This document shows positions 3,907 to 60,998 of a stretch of 64,000 nt of DNA, piece after piece. The first letter of the stretch is position 1. Each line of letters starts with the position of its first letter. The position numbers and the translations under genes are program-made. The notes below the pieces were generated by a model that did no database searches, was not told where the DNA came from, and saw nothing but the letters and a program-made list of their open reading frames with translations. Source of the stretch: Burkholderia seminalis DSM 23518 (GTDB taxonomy: Bacteria; Pseudomonadota; Gammaproteobacteria; Burkholderiales; Burkholderiaceae); assembly GCF_902832885.1 (NCBI RefSeq), contig NZ_CADFDK010000018.1, forward strand, positions 1-64,000. The letters run 5' to 3'.

Positions 3907-4578
3907 ATGAGTCTGGACTACGGTTTCGTGAAGGCGAAGGTGACATCGGTGGCGAAGCTGAAGGGCTCGCCGCACGGCAGCGAGATCCAGTATCACATCC
4001 ACATGACGCTGGCGCTGCCGTCGGGCGACTGGGATGTCGCGATCAACGTCGGCACCAGCGATGCGGACGACCTGTTGAACTACAAGCTCGTCTACGATTT
4101 CCACCATCCCGTCACCGAGACGCTCGCGGCCGCGGCCGAAGGCTACACCGACCTCACGGGGCAGGCCGCGCTGCCGGCACTGGACTACCTGCGCAGCGAC
4201 ATCCTGAACGAGACGGGTGCGTGGCGCGCGAGTGCGGTGATGGACGGCACCGAGAATCCGGAGCCGATTCCGTCGCTGCTGCGGCTCGTGAACGCCGCGC
4301 AGTCACAGGGCCTCGACGTCGTCGTGTTCGGCCGTACCTATAAGGAAGGCAACGGCATTCATGACACGCACATGAACCAGGGCTCGACGGGCTCGAACTA
4401 TCTGCATCGCGCGGGCGACGACCATAACGACCACAACGACGTGTGGCAGGACGGCGCACTGATCGTGCGCGTGAGCGCGTCGCAGTGGGCCGCGTATTTC
4501 GCGGCGTTCGAGCAGCAGGCCGTGCCGACCGACGCGCTCGGCAATCCGCTGCCGGGCGCGGGGCCGATCACGCGTTGA
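3907..4578 (+). CDS. DUF2278 (YukJ-like) family protein
   Basis: Soluble protein of 223 residues with no signal peptide. It matches the DUF2278/YukJ family, whose biochemical function is unknown. Diagnostic segments are the N-terminal LDYGFVKAKV (residues 3-12), GIHDTHMNQGS at about 150-160 and NDVWQDGALIV at about 177-187. The last two are rich in His, Asp and Asn (DDHNDHND just before) and resemble a metal or active site, which is inference. It stands alone between the liv terminator and a convergent GNAT gene, so context gives no pathway. Confidence 0.8.
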   Translation: MSLDYGFVKAKVTSVAKLKGSPHGSEIQYHIHMTLALPSGDWDVAINVGTSDADDLLNYKLVYDFHHPVTETLAAAAEGYTDLTGQAALPALDYLRSDILNETGAWRASAVMDGTENPEPIPSLLRLVNAAQSQGLDVVVFGRTYKEGNGIHDTHMNQGSTGSNYLHRAGDDHNDHNDVWQDGALIVRVSASQWAAYFAAFEQQAVPTDALGNPLPGAGPITR

Positions 4579-4599
4579 GAGGGGCCGCTGCCGCCGGCA

Positions 4600-5055
4600 T
4601 CACGCCGCCGGCAGCGTCTTGCCGAACGAGATGCGCTCCTCGACGCGATAACCGAGCGCCGCATAGAAGCGGCACGCGTCGTCGTTGCCGGGCAGTACCT
4701 GCAGGTTGATCTTCAGGCAGCCGCGCGCGGCGAGCGCGCGTTCCGCATGCGCGATCAGCGCGCGGCCGACGCCGAGCCGGCGCACGTCGTTCGCGACGCC
4801 GAACGAGTAGAGCCAGCCGCGATGTCCGTCGAAACCCGCCATCAGCGTGCCGACGACGCGCGCGCCGCTGGTCGCGACGAAGAACAGCTCCGGCTGCGTC
4901 GCGAGCTTCAGCGCGATCGATCGCAGCGGATCGCGGTGCGGCGGCGCATCGGCTTCGTCGTATTGCGGGAACGCGTCGCGCCATACCGCGAGCACGGCAT
5001 CGGTATCGGCGCGGTCGAACGGGCGGATTGCGACAGCATCGGCGGCGGCATCCAT
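4600..5055 (-). CDS. GNAT family N-acetyltransferase (YpeA-like)
   Basis: Acetyltransferase of 151 residues spanning one GNAT domain. The acetyl-CoA pyrophosphate loop RRLGVGRAL is at about residues 89-97. The segment LMAGFDGHRGWLYSFGV and the C-terminal FYAALGY closely resemble E. coli YpeA. The ATG is preceded by AAGGAG. It begins 13 bases after the stop of the upstream aminotransferase on the same strand, so the two are probably one transcript. The substrate is unknown. The position behind an acetylornithine-type aminotransferase makes a role in amino-acid or polyamine acetylation possible, but nothing in the sequence proves it. Confidence 0.85.
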   Translation of the reverse strand: MDAAADAVAIRPFDRADTDAVLAVWRDAFPQYDEADAPPHRDPLRSIALKLATQPELFFVATSGARVVGTLMAGFDGHRGWLYSFGVANDVRRLGVGRALIAHAERALAARGCLKINLQVLPGNDDACRFYAALGYRVEERISFGKTLPAA

Positions 5056-5068
5056 CGCGGCGGTCTCC

Positions 5069-6253
5069 TTAGAGCGTATCGAGGATCGACCGCAGCATCG
5101 CCATCATCTGGTCGATTTCGTCGGTCGTCACGTTCAGGGCGGGCATGAAGCGCAGCAGGTTCGGCCGCGCGGCGTTCAGCAGCAGGCCGTCGGGCTGCAT
5201 GTCGCGCGCCTTCTCGACGATCTGCGGGCCGATGTCCTTGCCGAGCAGCAGCGCGCGCAGCAGGCCTTCGCCGCGTTCGCCTTCGAAGCCGCGCTCCTCC
5301 GACAGCTCGAGCAGCTTGCGCTTCAGGTATTCGCCGCGGGCGCGCACGCCTTCGAGGAAGCCGGGCGCGACGAGCTGCGAGATCACCGAGTAGCCGGCCG
5401 CCGTCATCAGCGGGTTGCCGTTGTAGGTGCCGCCCTGGTCGCCGGCCTCGAACACCGCGACATCGGCCTTCGACAGCAGCGCCGCGAGCGGCACGCCGCT
5501 GCCGATGCCCTTGCCGAGCGTCATGATGTCCGGTTCGATGCCGGCGAGTTCGTACGCGAACAGCGTGCCCGCACGGCCGCAGCCGCTTTGCACTTCGTCG
5601 ACGATCAGCAGCAGGTTGTGCTGCTTCGTCAGCGCACGCAGCGCCTGCATGAATTCGCGCGTCGCCGGAATCACGCCGCCTTCGCCCTGGATCGGTTCGA
5701 GCATCACGGCGACGGTCTTGTCGGTGATCAGCTTCTCGACCGAGTTGATGTTGTTCAGCTCGGCCTTCGGGAAACCCGGCACCTGCGGCGCGTAGATCGT
5801 GTCCCAGCCGGGCTTGCCGCTGGCCGACATCGTCGCGAGCGTGCGGCCGTGGAAGCTGTGGTCGAACGTGATGATCTCGTACGCGCCGTTGCGGAACTTG
5901 CGGCCCCACTTGCGCGCGAGCTTGATCGCGCCTTCGTTCGCTTCCGCGCCGCTGTTCGTGAAGAACACCTTGTCGAACACGCTGTGCTGCGTGAGCAGGC
6001 CCGCGAGCTTCGCCATCGGTTCGTTGTAGAACGCCGGCGACGGGTTCAGCAGTTTTTCGGCCTGCGTCTTCAGCGCTTCGACGACACCGTCGTTGCAGTG
6101 GCCGAGGCTGTTGACGGCCCAGCCCTGGATGAAGTCCAGATAGCGCTTGCCCGTGTGATCGTAGAGCCACGAACCCTTGCCGTGGGTAAACACGATGTCG
6201 GGGCGGTTCGTGATGTACATCAGCGAGTCGATCGGAAAATCGTTCAGGGGCAT
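5069..6253 (-). CDS. argD: Acetylornithine transaminase-family aminotransferase (ArgD-like)
   Basis: PLP-dependent class-III aminotransferase, 394 residues from the start chosen here. It has NSGAEANE at about 100-107, the DEVQSG metal/PLP motif at about 219-224 and the Schiff-base lysine Lys248 in [10 protein letters not shown]. Length and motifs match acetylornithine/succinylornithine transaminases of arginine metabolism. A related omega-amino-acid substrate such as GABA cannot be excluded. The frame stays open 75 codons upstream, but [10 protein letters not shown] is the first point of family homology and has GGAG before it. The upstream extension overlaps a promoter, mini-ORF and terminator described separately. 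The GNAT gene follows in the same transcript. Confidence 0.88.
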
Positions 6254-6293
6254 GGCAGCAGACTCCAGCGGACGTTGAAAGGGAAACGGGCAA

Positions 6294-6319
6294 TAAAAAA
6301 GCCACGGAAGGCCGTGGCT
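6294..6319 (-). terminator. Intrinsic terminator just upstream of argD (candidate attenuator)
   Basis: On the minus strand AGCCACGG / CCGTGGCT forms an 8-bp stem with a CCTT loop followed by seven T. It ends about 40 bases before the argD start codon. The 40 bases between terminator and ATG hold a GGAG ribosome site but no recognisable promoter. A good sigma-70 promoter lies about 135 bases upstream of the hairpin. The hairpin may therefore act as a conditional terminator inside the argD leader rather than only ending the upstream reductase transcript. Confidence 0.85.
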
Positions 6320-6363
6320 GGTGGGTTCGAACAGCTTGTGCGTAACCGGTGAAGCGGTGTGGG

Positions 6364-6447
6364 TTACGCGCGAGTCCGTGACGAGCCGGCGGCATCCGGG
6401 CGGAGCGGCGAGCGGCGACGTCGAAGGGTGGACAGGAAACAGTTCAT
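6364..6447 (-). CDS. Arginine-rich leader mini-ORF upstream of argD (putative leader peptide)
   Basis: A 27-codon [23 protein letters not shown] followed by GSSRTRA, lies between the candidate promoter and the terminator before argD. Codons 9-12 are four consecutive arginine codons (CGA CGT CGC CGC), and seven of 27 codons are arginine. Its TAA stop lies in an 8-bp inverted repeat (GCGTAACC at 6362-6369 pairing with GGTTACGC at 6340-6347). There is no clear ribosome site, and the predicted transcript start is within a few bases of the ATG, so translation would have to be nearly leaderless. Arg-rich ORFs arise easily in GC-rich DNA, so this is a hypothesis supported by position. Confidence 0.4.
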
Positions 6448-6454
6448 GTGCGCA

Positions 6455-6484
6455 AGCATAAGGCATCCCGCGCCTCACTGTAAA
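6455..6484 (-). promoter_or_regulatory. Candidate sigma-70 promoter of the argD transcript
   Basis: The minus strand shows TTTACA at 6484-6479, an 18-base spacer and TATGCT at 6460-6455, a pattern close to the E. coli lac promoter. It is the only good match in the 294 bases between the reductase gene and argD. The predicted start at about 6448 would give a leader of about 195 bases containing the mini-ORF and the terminator. Confidence 0.55.
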
Positions 6485-6547
6485 CCGCCGCGATGCCGCG
6501 AATGTGACATCGCGGCGTGCGGCGCGGGACGCGGGCGGGCCCGCCGC

Positions 6548-7579
6548 TCAGACCGGATGCGCGAGGTCGGCGGCGCTCGTGAACGAGTCCGCGTAGAACT
6601 CGTCGGCCGGCAGCGCGTGGTGCTGCGTGAAGTCGCGCTGCGCGGATTCGACCATGACCGGCGCTCCGCACGCATACACCTGGTAGCCCGACAGATCGGG
6701 CAGGTCCTCGATCACCGCGCGATGGACGAAGCCCGTGCGGCCGGTCCATTGATCGCCGGCGTCCGGCTCGGAGAGCACCGGCACGTACTTGAAGTTCGGG
6801 ATCTCGCGTGCCCACTGCTCGGCGAGTTCGTCGAGGTAGATGTCCTTCTTGCGGCGGGCACCCCAGTAGAGCGTCATCGGGCGCGTGATGCCCGAGTGCT
6901 TCACATGCTCGATGATCGCCTTGATCGGCGCGAAGCCCGTGCCCGACGCGAGCAGCACGATCGGCTTGTCGGAGTCCTCGCGCAGGAAGAACGTGCCGAG
7001 CGGGCCTTCGAAGCGCAGGATGTCGCGCTCCTTCATCGCGCCGAACACGTGGTCGGTGAACTTGCCGCCCGGCATGTGGCGGATGTGCAGCTCGATCGGG
7101 CCTTCCTCGTGCGGCGCGTTCGCCATCGAGTAGCTGCGGCGCGAGCCGTCCTTCAGGATGAACTCGACGTACTGGCCCGCGAGGTACTGGAGGCGCTCGT
7201 TGGCGGGCAGCTGCAGCTTCACGACCATCACGTCGTCGGCCTTGCGTTCGAGCGCGGCGATCCGGCACGGCAGCTTCTTGACCTGCACGCCGTCGACGCC
7301 GGCGATTTCACGCACGTCGATTTCGAGATCGCACTGGGCCTTCGAGCAGCACAGCAGCGCGAGGCCGCGCGTGCGTTCGTCGTTCGACAGCGCCGATGCG
7401 GCGTGCGGGCCCTGTTCGATCTGGCCCGACACGATCTGGCCCTTGCAGGAGCCGCATGCGCCGTTCTTGCAGCCGTACGGCAGATGGACGTTCTGGCGCA
7501 GCGCGGCAGCCAGCACGGTTTCGTCCGACTCGACCTGGAATTGCCGGCCGCTTTGCTTGAGAGTGACGTTGAATGCCAT
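6548..7579 (-). CDS. 2Fe-2S ferredoxin/flavin reductase (CDP-6-deoxy-delta-3,4-glucoseen reductase-like)
   Basis: Electron-transfer protein of 343 residues with three domains in order. An N-terminal plant-type 2Fe-2S domain has Cys37, Cys42, Cys45 and Cys77/78. An FAD-binding domain has RSYSMANA at 148-155. A C-terminal NAD(P)H-binding domain has ASGTGFAPI at 211-219. This layout matches AscD/phenol hydroxylase-type reductases, and such proteins are usually named CDP-6-deoxyglucoseen reductase in Burkholderia. No deoxysugar genes are nearby, so that substrate name is doubtful; it may pass NAD(P)H electrons to an unlinked oxygenase or other partner. The gene is divergent from the SDR at 7687. 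Confidence 0.85.
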   Translation of the reverse strand: MAFNVTLKQSGRQFQVESDETVLAAALRQNVHLPYGCKNGACGSCKGQIVSGQIEQGPHAASALSNDERTRGLALLCCSKAQCDLEIDVREIAGVDGVQVKKLPCRIAALERKADDVMVVKLQLPANERLQYLAGQYVEFILKDGSRRSYSMANAPHEEGPIELHIRHMPGGKFTDHVFGAMKERDILRFEGPLGTFFLREDSDKPIVLLASGTGFAPIKAIIEHVKHSGITRPMTLYWGARRKKDIYLDELAEQWAREIPNFKYVPVLSEPDAGDQWTGRTGFVHRAVIEDLPDLSGYQVYACGAPVMVESAQRDFTQHHALPADEFYADSFTSAADLAHPV

Positions 7580-7630
7580 AGAACCAAACTAGAACAAAAT
7601 GGGGGGACCGTGCATGTCGCGCACGGCAGC

Positions 7631-7663
7631 TACAATGCAAGACCGTTGCGCGTCGCGCAACGG
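7631..7663 (+). promoter_or_regulatory. Candidate -10 element and palindrome before the SDR gene
   Basis: TACAAT at 7631-7636 is a good -10 hexamer about 50 bases before the SDR start. It is followed at 7643-7663 by the inverted repeat CCGTTGCGC-GTC-GCGCAACGG, which would be in the 5' untranslated RNA. It may be an operator or an RNA hairpin. No -35 match is convincing. Confidence 0.4.
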
Positions 7664-7686
7664 CCGCTACTGATTTCGCAACCAAC

Positions 7687-8724
7687 ATGATCGCGACACG
7701 AATCCTGCGCCGGCCGCGCGCACTGATCGTCGGCTGCGGCGACGTCGGCATGCGCTGCGTCGCGCAATGGCGCGATACGCGCCGCAACCTGCGGATCTTC
7801 GCGCTGACGAGCCACCCGGCCCGCCGCGACGAACTGCGGGCCGCGGGCGCGACGCCGATCGTCGGCGACCTCGATCGCCGGGCGACGCTCGGCCGCCTCG
7901 CGGGTCTCGCTCGCACGATCCTGCATCTCGCACCGCCGCAGGCCGACGGCCGTGACGACCGGCGCACGCGTGCGCTGATCGCCGCAACGTCCATGCCCGC
8001 GCGTCGGCCAGCGACCCCGCCGGCACCGGCGGTCGGCCGGCTCCGAACGCTGCGCACCGCTGCACGGCAGGCCGGCGCACCCGTTCGGGGAGCGCGTATT
8101 GTACCCGACGGCCTTCGCGCGCCGAGGCTCGTCTACGCGAGCACGACGGGCGTATACGGCGACTGCGGCGGCGCGCGCATCGACGAAACGCGGCCGTTGC
8201 GCCCCGCGAATCCGCGCGCGTTCCGACGCGTGTCGGCCGAGCGACAACTGCGTGCGGCGACGGTGCGCGGCGTGCTGTCCGCGCGCATCGTGCGCATTCC
8301 CGGCATCTACGCGGCGAACCGCCTGCCGGTCGCGCGGCTCGAGCGCGGCACGCCGGCGCTCGAGCCGGCCGACGACGTCTACACGAACCACATCCACGCG
8401 GATGATCTCGCGGCGATCCTGCGCCGCGCGGCCGAGCGCGGCAGGCCGGCGCGCGCCGTGCACGCGTCGGACGACAGCGAACTGCGGATGGGGGAGTATT
8501 TCGACCGGGTCGCGCGGGTGCTCGGCCTGCCGAGGCCGCCGCGCGTCAGCCGCGCGGACGCCGAACGCCAGCTCGAACCGACGCTGCTGTCGTTCATGCG
8601 GGAGTCGCGACGCCTGTCCAACGCACGGCTCAAGGCCGAATTGTGCGTGACGTTGCGCTATCCGACCGTAGACGATTTCCTTCAAACGCTCGCGCCGGGC
8701 AGCGCCTCAGGTCAGCGCCGGTAA
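7687..8724 (+). CDS. NAD-dependent epimerase/SDR family protein (YeeZ-like)
   Basis: Extended-SDR-like protein of 345 residues. The nucleotide-binding motif GCGDVG is at residues 16-21 and the catalytic-site region YASTTGVYGD at 150-159. The usual Tyr-x3-Lys is not evident: the equivalent area reads RRVSAERQL, as in YeeZ-type proteins, so classical dehydrogenase chemistry is uncertain. Residues about 100-146 form an Ala/Pro/Arg-rich stretch that looks like an insertion between the Rossmann half and the YASTTG motif. The last 18 bases overlap the convergent small membrane-protein gene. The substrate is unknown. Confidence 0.75.
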   Translation: MIATRILRRPRALIVGCGDVGMRCVAQWRDTRRNLRIFALTSHPARRDELRAAGATPIVGDLDRRATLGRLAGLARTILHLAPPQADGRDDRRTRALIAATSMPARRPATPPAPAVGRLRTLRTAARQAGAPVRGARIVPDGLRAPRLVYASTTGVYGDCGGARIDETRPLRPANPRAFRRVSAERQLRAATVRGVLSARIVRIPGIYAANRLPVARLERGTPALEPADDVYTNHIHADDLAAILRRAAERGRPARAVHASDDSELRMGEYFDRVARVLGLPRPPRVSRADAERQLEPTLLSFMRESRRLSNARLKAELCVTLRYPTVDDFLQTLAPGSASGQRR

Positions 8725-37187: not shown

Positions 37188-37192
37188 ATAGG

Positions 37193-37375
37193 CCCCCGCC
37201 TTGGCCGCTAGGCCGGCATCCTGAACCTGGGGTTCAGAATTGGTCGCAGTTAGCAGCACTTCGGGTACATCAGACAGAGTGACGCGCGCGCCCGTGCTAC
37301 AAATTTCCGCAACCGTGCACATGGCATTGGTTCAAGGAATATATGACCTTGGCGAACCAGGCAGGGAAGCTGACT
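37193..37375 (-). ncRNA. ssrS: 6S RNA
   Basis: The only long gap between zapA and the EVE gene carries a structured RNA on the minus strand. The 5' part reads CCCTGCCTGGTTCGCC, followed by TCCTTGAACC. The 3' part reads CTGAACCCCAGGTTCAGG followed by GCCGGCC, whose complementary arms form the long closing stem with an internal bubble typical of 6S RNA. Location directly downstream of zapA, length of about 180 bases and the following terminator all agree with 6S. It sequesters sigma-70 RNA polymerase in stationary phase by mimicking an open promoter. Ends are approximate. Confidence 0.85.
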
Positions 37376-60786: not shown

Positions 60787-60822
60787 GGGCAAAAAAACCG
60801 GGGCGGATACGGCCCCGGAGCA
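60787..60822 (-). terminator. Intrinsic terminator facing metG (minus strand)
   Basis: CCGGGGC-CGTATCC-GCCCCGG followed by TTTTTTT on the minus strand, about 180 bases behind the OmpA-like lipoprotein gene and upstream of the metG promoter. Confidence 0.92.
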
Positions 60823-60998
60823 ACAACGACAAGAGGAGAATGGTGACGCGCCGGCAACACCAGCCGCGTACCGTAAATACTGACCACGGCCTGCGACAGA
60901 AGTTCGAAAATTTTTTCGATTTGTTACCGGGTCCGCCGGAAGGCTTGTCCGGCGGGGCTGCGCGGGCGGTCTGCCCGCGCCTTCTCCTTGTCGCGTGC

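Follow-up and report, generated by a model that had tools for sequence, protein, structure and literature searches.

Probable Ribosome-Mediated Attenuation of argD by Arginine through a Leaderless Leader Peptide in Burkholderiales

Architecture of the argD leader in Burkholderia seminalis

The window analyzed here, a stretch of 64,000 nucleotides (nt) from Burkholderia seminalis DSM 23518 (contig NZ_CADFDK010000018.1), carries on its minus strand a gene for an acetylornithine transaminase of the PRK03715 type (argD; 5069 to 6253). Its product matches the equivalog family NF002985 with 818 bits against a cutoff of 568, in agreement with a preliminary description of this DNA that had called the gene an acetylornithine-type aminotransferase, and this places an arginine biosynthesis gene downstream of the leader considered below; upstream of the leader lies a ferredoxin-reductase-type gene. 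The whole element occupies positions 6484 to 6295 of the minus strand, its terminator ending 41 nt ahead of the ATG (6253) of argD, the gene that it presumably regulates.

Read in the direction of transcription, the element opens with a promoter recovered in a promoter scan, TTTACA-18-TATGCT (6455 to 6484, with TTTACA at 6484 to 6479 and TATGCT at 6460 to 6455), followed by a leader peptide ORF of 27 codons plus the stop codon (6364 to 6447) that has no Shine-Dalgarno sequence and contains seven Arg codons. Four of these are consecutive at codons 9 to 12 (CGA CGT CGC CGC; 6412 to 6423), a run that we propose as the sensor and that also contributes to the 5' strand of a potential stem, 1:2. Region 2, GCCGCCGGCU (6384 to 6393), can pair with the 5' arm of the terminator to give an antiterminator (2:3), and its GGCU together with the CGUC that follows (to 6380) can instead pair with the Arg-codon strand (1:2). 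The element is closed by an intrinsic terminator stem-loop (3:4; 6300 to 6319, with region 3 at 6319 to 6311) and a tract of five T residues (6295 to 6299). The promoter, the mini-ORF with its Arg run, and a terminator about 40 bases ahead of the gene had all been reported in the preliminary description and are present at these positions, whereas the antiterminator partner that it had missed is supplied by region 2. It had also noted a perfect 8-bp stem, GCGTAACC (6369 to 6362) paired with GGTTACGC (6347 to 6340), as a device trapping the stop codon, which the resulting hairpin (6340 to 6369) does contain; the stem is real, but a hairpin enclosed within the antiterminator fold modeled for the stalled state is the better reading of it.

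A scan of positions 4000 to 8500 of the window returned a single promoter-like and a single terminator-like site, where shuffles predict 0.4 and 2.5, respectively; both sites are the leader's own, and, as previously claimed, no promoter-like site was found between the terminator and argD. Taken alone, these promoter and terminator scores are near chance, so that the case depends on conservation. They would suit a trivial explanation, namely, that the Arg codons reflect GC-rich DNA and the terminator is merely the boundary of the upstream gene; the leader's own promoter, which separates it from that gene, and the controls of the arginine-blind scan described below argue against this, and we regard it as vanishingly improbable. 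Exact-pattern searches of the organism's own genome found TTTACA-N17/18-TANNNT-N6/7-ATG only once, at the argD leader, and the same promoter-ATG geometry with TTGACA at four other sites.

The leader matches a cataloged small RNA

Only one Rfam family, RF02884 (BcKCsr7), reaches its gathering score in the leader, the whole model being matched on the minus strand (6295 to 6461; 158.1 bits against a gathering score of 59). No Rfam match to a T-box or amino acid riboswitch was obtained in the leader, and extending the search to an E value of ≤1 adds three sRNA families, all far below their cutoffs. Elsewhere in the window, there are a cobalamin riboswitch (RF00174; 38268 to 38519, plus strand; 46.4 bits), a 6S RNA (37189 to 37370, minus strand), and the Burkholderia sRNA ncS16, or Bc_KC_sr1 (60789 to 60871, minus strand).

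According to the accessible portion of a review of Burkholderia sRNAs, the counterpart in Burkholderia cenocepacia J2315 is RIT34, equivalent to nc5U30, Bc_KC_sr7, and IG1_2967543; it is marked as expressed, and its transcript is placed on the plus strand of chromosome 1 at 2,967,641 to 2,967,787 (147 nt) (PMC10987360). That same portion gives it no function and connects it with neither a leader peptide, attenuation, nor arginine (PMC10987360). The distance from the ATG to the end of the terminator stem in the window leader is 148 nt; the length of the J2315 transcript fits, without proving, a start near the ATG. We take the nc5U prefix to mean the "short 5'UTRs" class of Sass et al. 2017, whose members are ascribed, in the part of that paper accessible to us, to processing or attenuation (PMC5688073). 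The main text of the latter contains none of the terms argD, aminotransferase, acetylornithine, and leader peptide; likewise, RIT34 does not appear in the main text of PMC10175445, and argD is absent from those of PMC4603805 and PMC7563307. A literature search for nc5U30 turned up only the above-mentioned review, and no arginine attenuator for argD is described in the literature searched, a body of partly accessible texts with subscription papers and preprints mostly outside its scope. Since 72 genes of B. cenocepacia are reported, in the available part of one study, to start exactly at the start codon (PMC4603805), leaderless transcripts are usual in that species; they are likewise described as usual in Cupriavidus metallidurans in the available part of another (PMC7563307).

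Conservation among close relatives

We collected 122 leaders, one per genome, from genomes retrieved through similarity at the DNA level or to RF02884, a set thus chosen by likeness to the leader. The preliminary description had held that its proposal would fail if close relatives lost the Arg codons or the reading frame while keeping the terminator. Four consecutive arginines (RRRR) are in frame in 117 of these leaders, and there is RRR in one (L093) and RRRC in three (L111, L116, and L130, the last including masked letters). The remaining leader, L136, has lost the start and frame and kept the terminator; its genome is a 4.2-Mb assembly in about 300 contigs. The rest of the peptide and the position of the stop codon vary among the 122 leaders, while the four-codon Arg run stays in those 117. 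The promoter pattern missed 11 leaders of group g49, the ORFs of which are conserved nonetheless (g1, g44, and g34 are Burkholderia, Paraburkholderia, and Caballeronia, respectively, and Trinickia is among the members of g37 and g49). Leaders of Burkholderia and Paraburkholderia also share a GTTCGAA block 5' of the terminator (6332 to 6326, minus strand), for which the switch discussed below offers no explanation.

A second set, chosen by the ArgD protein rather than by the leader, comprised the best 80 loci kept from a search of named genomes. Among these best 80, RRRR is found in 75 and RRR in two (L218 and L219); L155 and L216 fail the leader scan, and their apparent counterparts in the first set, L066 and L095, have RRRR. 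The last locus, L220 from Candidatus Burkholderia pumila, lacks the leader with mini-ORF and terminator, and argD follows immediately on its retained promoter; the attenuator seems to have been lost naturally here.

An arginine-blind search in distant relatives

To look beyond leaders selected for similarity, 126 regions upstream of argD were picked by the argD family NF002985 alone, the window's own match and one broken partial match having been excluded (from 65 matches listed). A hit was defined as a −10 element ending 4 to 10 nt before the ATG of an ORF of 7 to 50 codons with a score of ≥9 and no rule concerning arginine. Such promoter-abutting mini-ORFs occur in 89 of the 126 regions, and in 85 of these 89 there is a run of at least two arginines in frame with the promoter-proximal ATG (three or more in 66). 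By comparison, the reverse complements of the 126 regions yielded no hits and five dinucleotide shuffles yielded 1, 1, 1, 2, and 2, counts that are hard to reconcile with an Arg run arising as a mere product of GC-rich sequence, a weakness conceded in the preliminary description. Its characterization of the mini-ORF as nearly leaderless also holds more widely, as the geometry recurs, with the −10 element ending 6 to 8 nt before the ATG in most of these hits. The run is preceded by 6 to 21 codons in peptides of 15 to 39 codons, and leaders differ in placing the stop codon before or after region 2. Typical peptides are MNQALHLRRRRTLLPPGSRAAVC (group g48), MNTAIIRRRARTLLPTGVPRG (g27), MNMIRTLLRRRSPLPLPGKPCA (f8), MNTKFNDALRRRITTSGMRSCGRRQP (f24), and MHCTNSLRRRDPAREARARR (f3). 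In the more distant genera, the leaders tested with RF02884 score below its cutoff.

At this threshold, 37 of the 126 regions have no mini-ORF, including all of those of groups g36 (6), f21 (7), f30 (4), and f19 (1); group f4 gave one hit in 11 regions, which is not Arg rich. The single regions of f15 and f35 do have Arg-run mini-ORFs, missed by the promoter rule. Without that rule, the regions lacking an Arg leader yielded RRR mini-ORFs similar to the others in L277 and L281, together with ones indistinguishable from chance in L270, L280, L284, L287, and L288. A scan of all long loci (240 hits) mostly finds the leaders themselves again and is hence no control. In the wider class, 7 of 369 other genomes match the argD family at an E value of ≤1e−130, six of the seven over the cutoff. 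One of the seven, from another order of the class (L388; argD under the NF002985 cutoff at 514.7 bits), has an RRRR-containing mini-ORF, MTIQPCTHASRRRRPPLRVVASPCACRERYIRGLG, just after a promoter and a hairpin with a T run before argD; a second, L387, has an Arg-rich but interrupted mini-ORF (RMRFMLRLR), and no Arg leader was found in the remaining five.

These comparisons bear on the possibility that BcKCsr7 is mainly a trans-acting sRNA, transcribed from its own promoter to its own terminator, and stands before argD by coincidence. Its classification as an sRNA both in Rfam and in the accessible part of the review of Burkholderia sRNAs (PMC10987360) is in keeping with such a role, as is the conserved GTTCGAA block; however, the Arg run is kept in frame over distances at which other sequence diverges, all 122 leaders examined precede argD (second RF02884 matches in some genomes lie outside this count), no other promoter-like site lies ahead of argD, and L220 keeps the promoter for argD itself after losing the leader. 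We therefore consider this account very unlikely, while noting that the stub released by termination may have a trans role besides attenuation.

Codon signature of the Arg run

The codons of the run were tabulated in 143 distinct ORFs, with identical ORFs counted once and L118 and L133 dropped, an internal ATG having been picked in these. The longest Arg runs are made up of 250 CGC, 149 CGA, and 96 CGT codons and are free of CGG, AGA, and AGG, with CGA as the first codon in 138 of the 143. The first 1,150 nt of 69 argD genes, for comparison, contain 1,123 Arg codons, of which 853 are CGC, 124 are CGT, 80 are CGG, 35 are CGA, 29 are AGG, and 2 are AGA, the sequences in both sets being related so that statistics on them are not independent. 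The Arg codons make up strand 1, so some bases of the run are possibly fixed by pairing, and RNA pairing may account for part of the codon bias. CGA, CGC, and CGU are decoded by one inosine-bearing tRNA, and CGA is the codon worst decoded by this tRNA-Arg(ICG). The choice of codons, CGA first and CGG never, points to decoding rather than to the peptide.

This bears directly on a second alternative, in which a polyarginine nascent peptide with arginine or ornithine as the ligand, rather than uncharged tRNA, arrests the ribosome. Fungal arginine attenuator peptides provide a precedent, conservation of the peptide resides in its Arg run, and speF is preceded by an arginine-responsive leader ORF, according to the accessible text of the study concerned (PMC6386406). 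Against it stand the constraint on the codons themselves, the fact that, apart from the initiator, no other residue was seen to be conserved across all of the clades, and a fold model (see below) that requires the stall to be on the run itself. Arrest by the peptide is, in our assessment, unlikely.

A predicted antiterminator and fold switch

The folding of the leader was computed with a ribosome modeled as hiding the RNA up to 12 nt past the first base of the A-site codon. For the window leader, the calculated probability of the terminator is 1.0 without a ribosome and 1.0 with a ribosome at codons 14 to 28, the stop codon included; it falls to 0.08, 0.03, and 0.03 at codons 10, 11, and 12, is 0.84 at codon 9 and 0.97 at codon 13, and is at least 0.84 elsewhere. 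Covering 9 or 15 nt instead shifts this trough by one codon (computed for codons 9 to 12). Across 44 distinct Burkholderia leaders, the probability is predicted to be below 0.5 in 37, 37, and 38 with the ribosome at codons 10, 11, and 12, respectively, compared to 4, 10, 6, and 1 at codons 8, 9, 13, and 14 and none at codons 2 to 7 and 15 to 28. Computationally, then, the antiterminator is predicted to form only upon a stall on the run in the window leader and in most Burkholderia leaders. Shuffling the stretch from the run to the terminator gave values as low in 4 of 200 cases for the window and 2 of 200 for another Burkholderia leader (L251), whereas six leaders from other groups gave counts of 40, 20, 13, 7, 17, and 64 in 200; as modeled, this control of the fold switch is good only for Burkholderia.

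Outside Burkholderia, the terminator is still favored at equilibrium under stalling (group means, 0.63 to 1.00). However, when the terminator 5' arm is considered before the 3' arm exists, it is more paired with a ribosome on the run than with one at the stop codon in 16 of 16 groups, and more than in ribosome-free RNA in all 16 except f24 (0.69 versus 0.76). Beyond Burkholderia, the predicted switch is accordingly only kinetic, with f24 partly contrary. With the 3' arm still absent, 15 of the 16 clade examples inspected visually (all but L301) have a minimum-energy fold in which the 5' arm is bound by the segment that follows the Arg run.

The complementarity of region 2 to the terminator arm was also compared across clades. 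In 22 representatives, predicted region 2 begins 11 to 33 nt past the Arg run, and its pairing energy with the terminator arm averages −15.6 kcal/mol for cognate combinations versus −14.1 kcal/mol for re-dealt ones; 10 of 20,000 permutations were as low as the cognate mean (30 and 29 with 40- and 60-nt windows). A 36-genus set, 17 genera of which belong to f8, shows a smaller cognate difference (40 of 10,000 permutations). Relative to shuffles, the antiterminator energy has a z score below −1 in 14 of the 36 genus representatives and in 2 of the 17 of f8, that of the Burkholderia representative being −0.37. In an alignment of 43 leaders, the antiterminator helix has 79.7% of its cells paired, versus 21 to 53% when slid, and the terminator has 99.7%; one antiterminator pair is altered on both sides, and covariation within the family is weak. 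RNAalifold applied to the leader alignment yields the terminator only, and fold z scores of the middle hairpin are mixed (group means, −2.7 to +1.0).

Proposed mechanism and regulatory context

Very probably, argD transcription is controlled by ribosome-mediated attenuation specific for arginine, through a leader peptide translated from a leaderless start, and this arrangement is widespread in Burkholderiales. The computations establish conservation of the run, frame, promoter geometry, and terminator; complementarity of the antiterminator across clades; and a fold switch in Burkholderia. The preliminary proposal that argD is controlled by ribosome stalling at Arg codons thus draws support from conservation, the codon signature, and the predicted switch, to which the present analysis adds membership in a known Rfam family, an antiterminator, and a run that is CGA first and CGG free.

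From this we infer the following sequence of events in the cell, including stalling, leaderless initiation, and a response to arginine. Transcription would start at the AUG or within a few bases upstream of it, and a ribosome would load directly on the 5' end without the help of a Shine-Dalgarno sequence. With charged tRNA-Arg plentiful, it would reach the stop codon and cover region 2, allowing the terminator to form and releasing a stub of about 150 nt that would be BcKCsr7. When arginine is short, the ribosome would stall on the CGA-led run, and the freed region 2 would pair with the terminator 5' arm (2:3), letting polymerase continue into argD. In the absence of translation, the Arg-codon strand would capture region 2 (1:2), and the terminator would likewise form.

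The ArgR repressor family (PF01316) has no match in the organism's own genome and is above the cutoff in none of 150 genomes of the order, with one match below it; the same model is above the cutoff in 8 of 14 control genomes. In the accessible part of a comparative study, ArgR is described as conserved in gammaproteobacterial groups and absent from other classes (PMC5343134). We lean modestly toward a broader reading, in which this is an order-wide, ArgR-independent leaderless attenuator that senses the charging of tRNA-Arg(ICG) through its CGA-first run and reaches beyond Burkholderiales. An arginine attenuator, if real, would partly answer how the ArgR-free Burkholderiales regulate arginine synthesis and would supply a function for an RNA cataloged as an sRNA. 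Arginine would also join the amino acids to which a biosynthetic gene responds by classical attenuation, in this case with translation initiated on a leaderless ORF. A run that starts with CGA and lacks CGG allows sensing through one tRNA to be tested directly, and leaders varying in length and stop position form a ready comparative series.

Comparison with known systems

The trp, his, leu, and ilv attenuators of enterobacteria combine a leader ORF rich in codons of the pathway, mutually exclusive 1:2, 2:3, and 3:4 pairings, an intrinsic terminator, and a biosynthetic gene. The argD leader resembles them in having a codon run, three exclusive pairings, a terminator, and a biosynthetic gene, and differs in its use of arginine, its want of a Shine-Dalgarno sequence, and a run confined to CGA, CGC, and CGT with CGA first. 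The leader peptide of the Sinorhizobium trpL attenuator is translated from a leaderless start, a trait proposed for the argD leader as well, while trpL is concerned with tryptophan and belongs to Alphaproteobacteria. As described in the accessible text on the Salmonella speF leader, consecutive Arg codons in orf34 sense arginine, as would those of the argD leader; orf34, however, has only two such codons and a Shine-Dalgarno sequence, precedes an ornithine decarboxylase gene, and acts via Rho, RNase G, and access to the speF ribosome-binding site (PMC6386406). Pseudomonas aeruginosa carA likewise has a leader peptide before a gene of arginine and pyrimidine synthesis, with attenuation suggested, but in the available part of that study, the attenuation is linked to pyrimidines, whereas the effect of arginine is at the level of transcription (PMC4997734). 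Finally, RF02884, under its names BcKCsr7, nc5U30, RIT34, and Bc_KC_sr7, is the same RNA as the argD leader, though filed as an sRNA.
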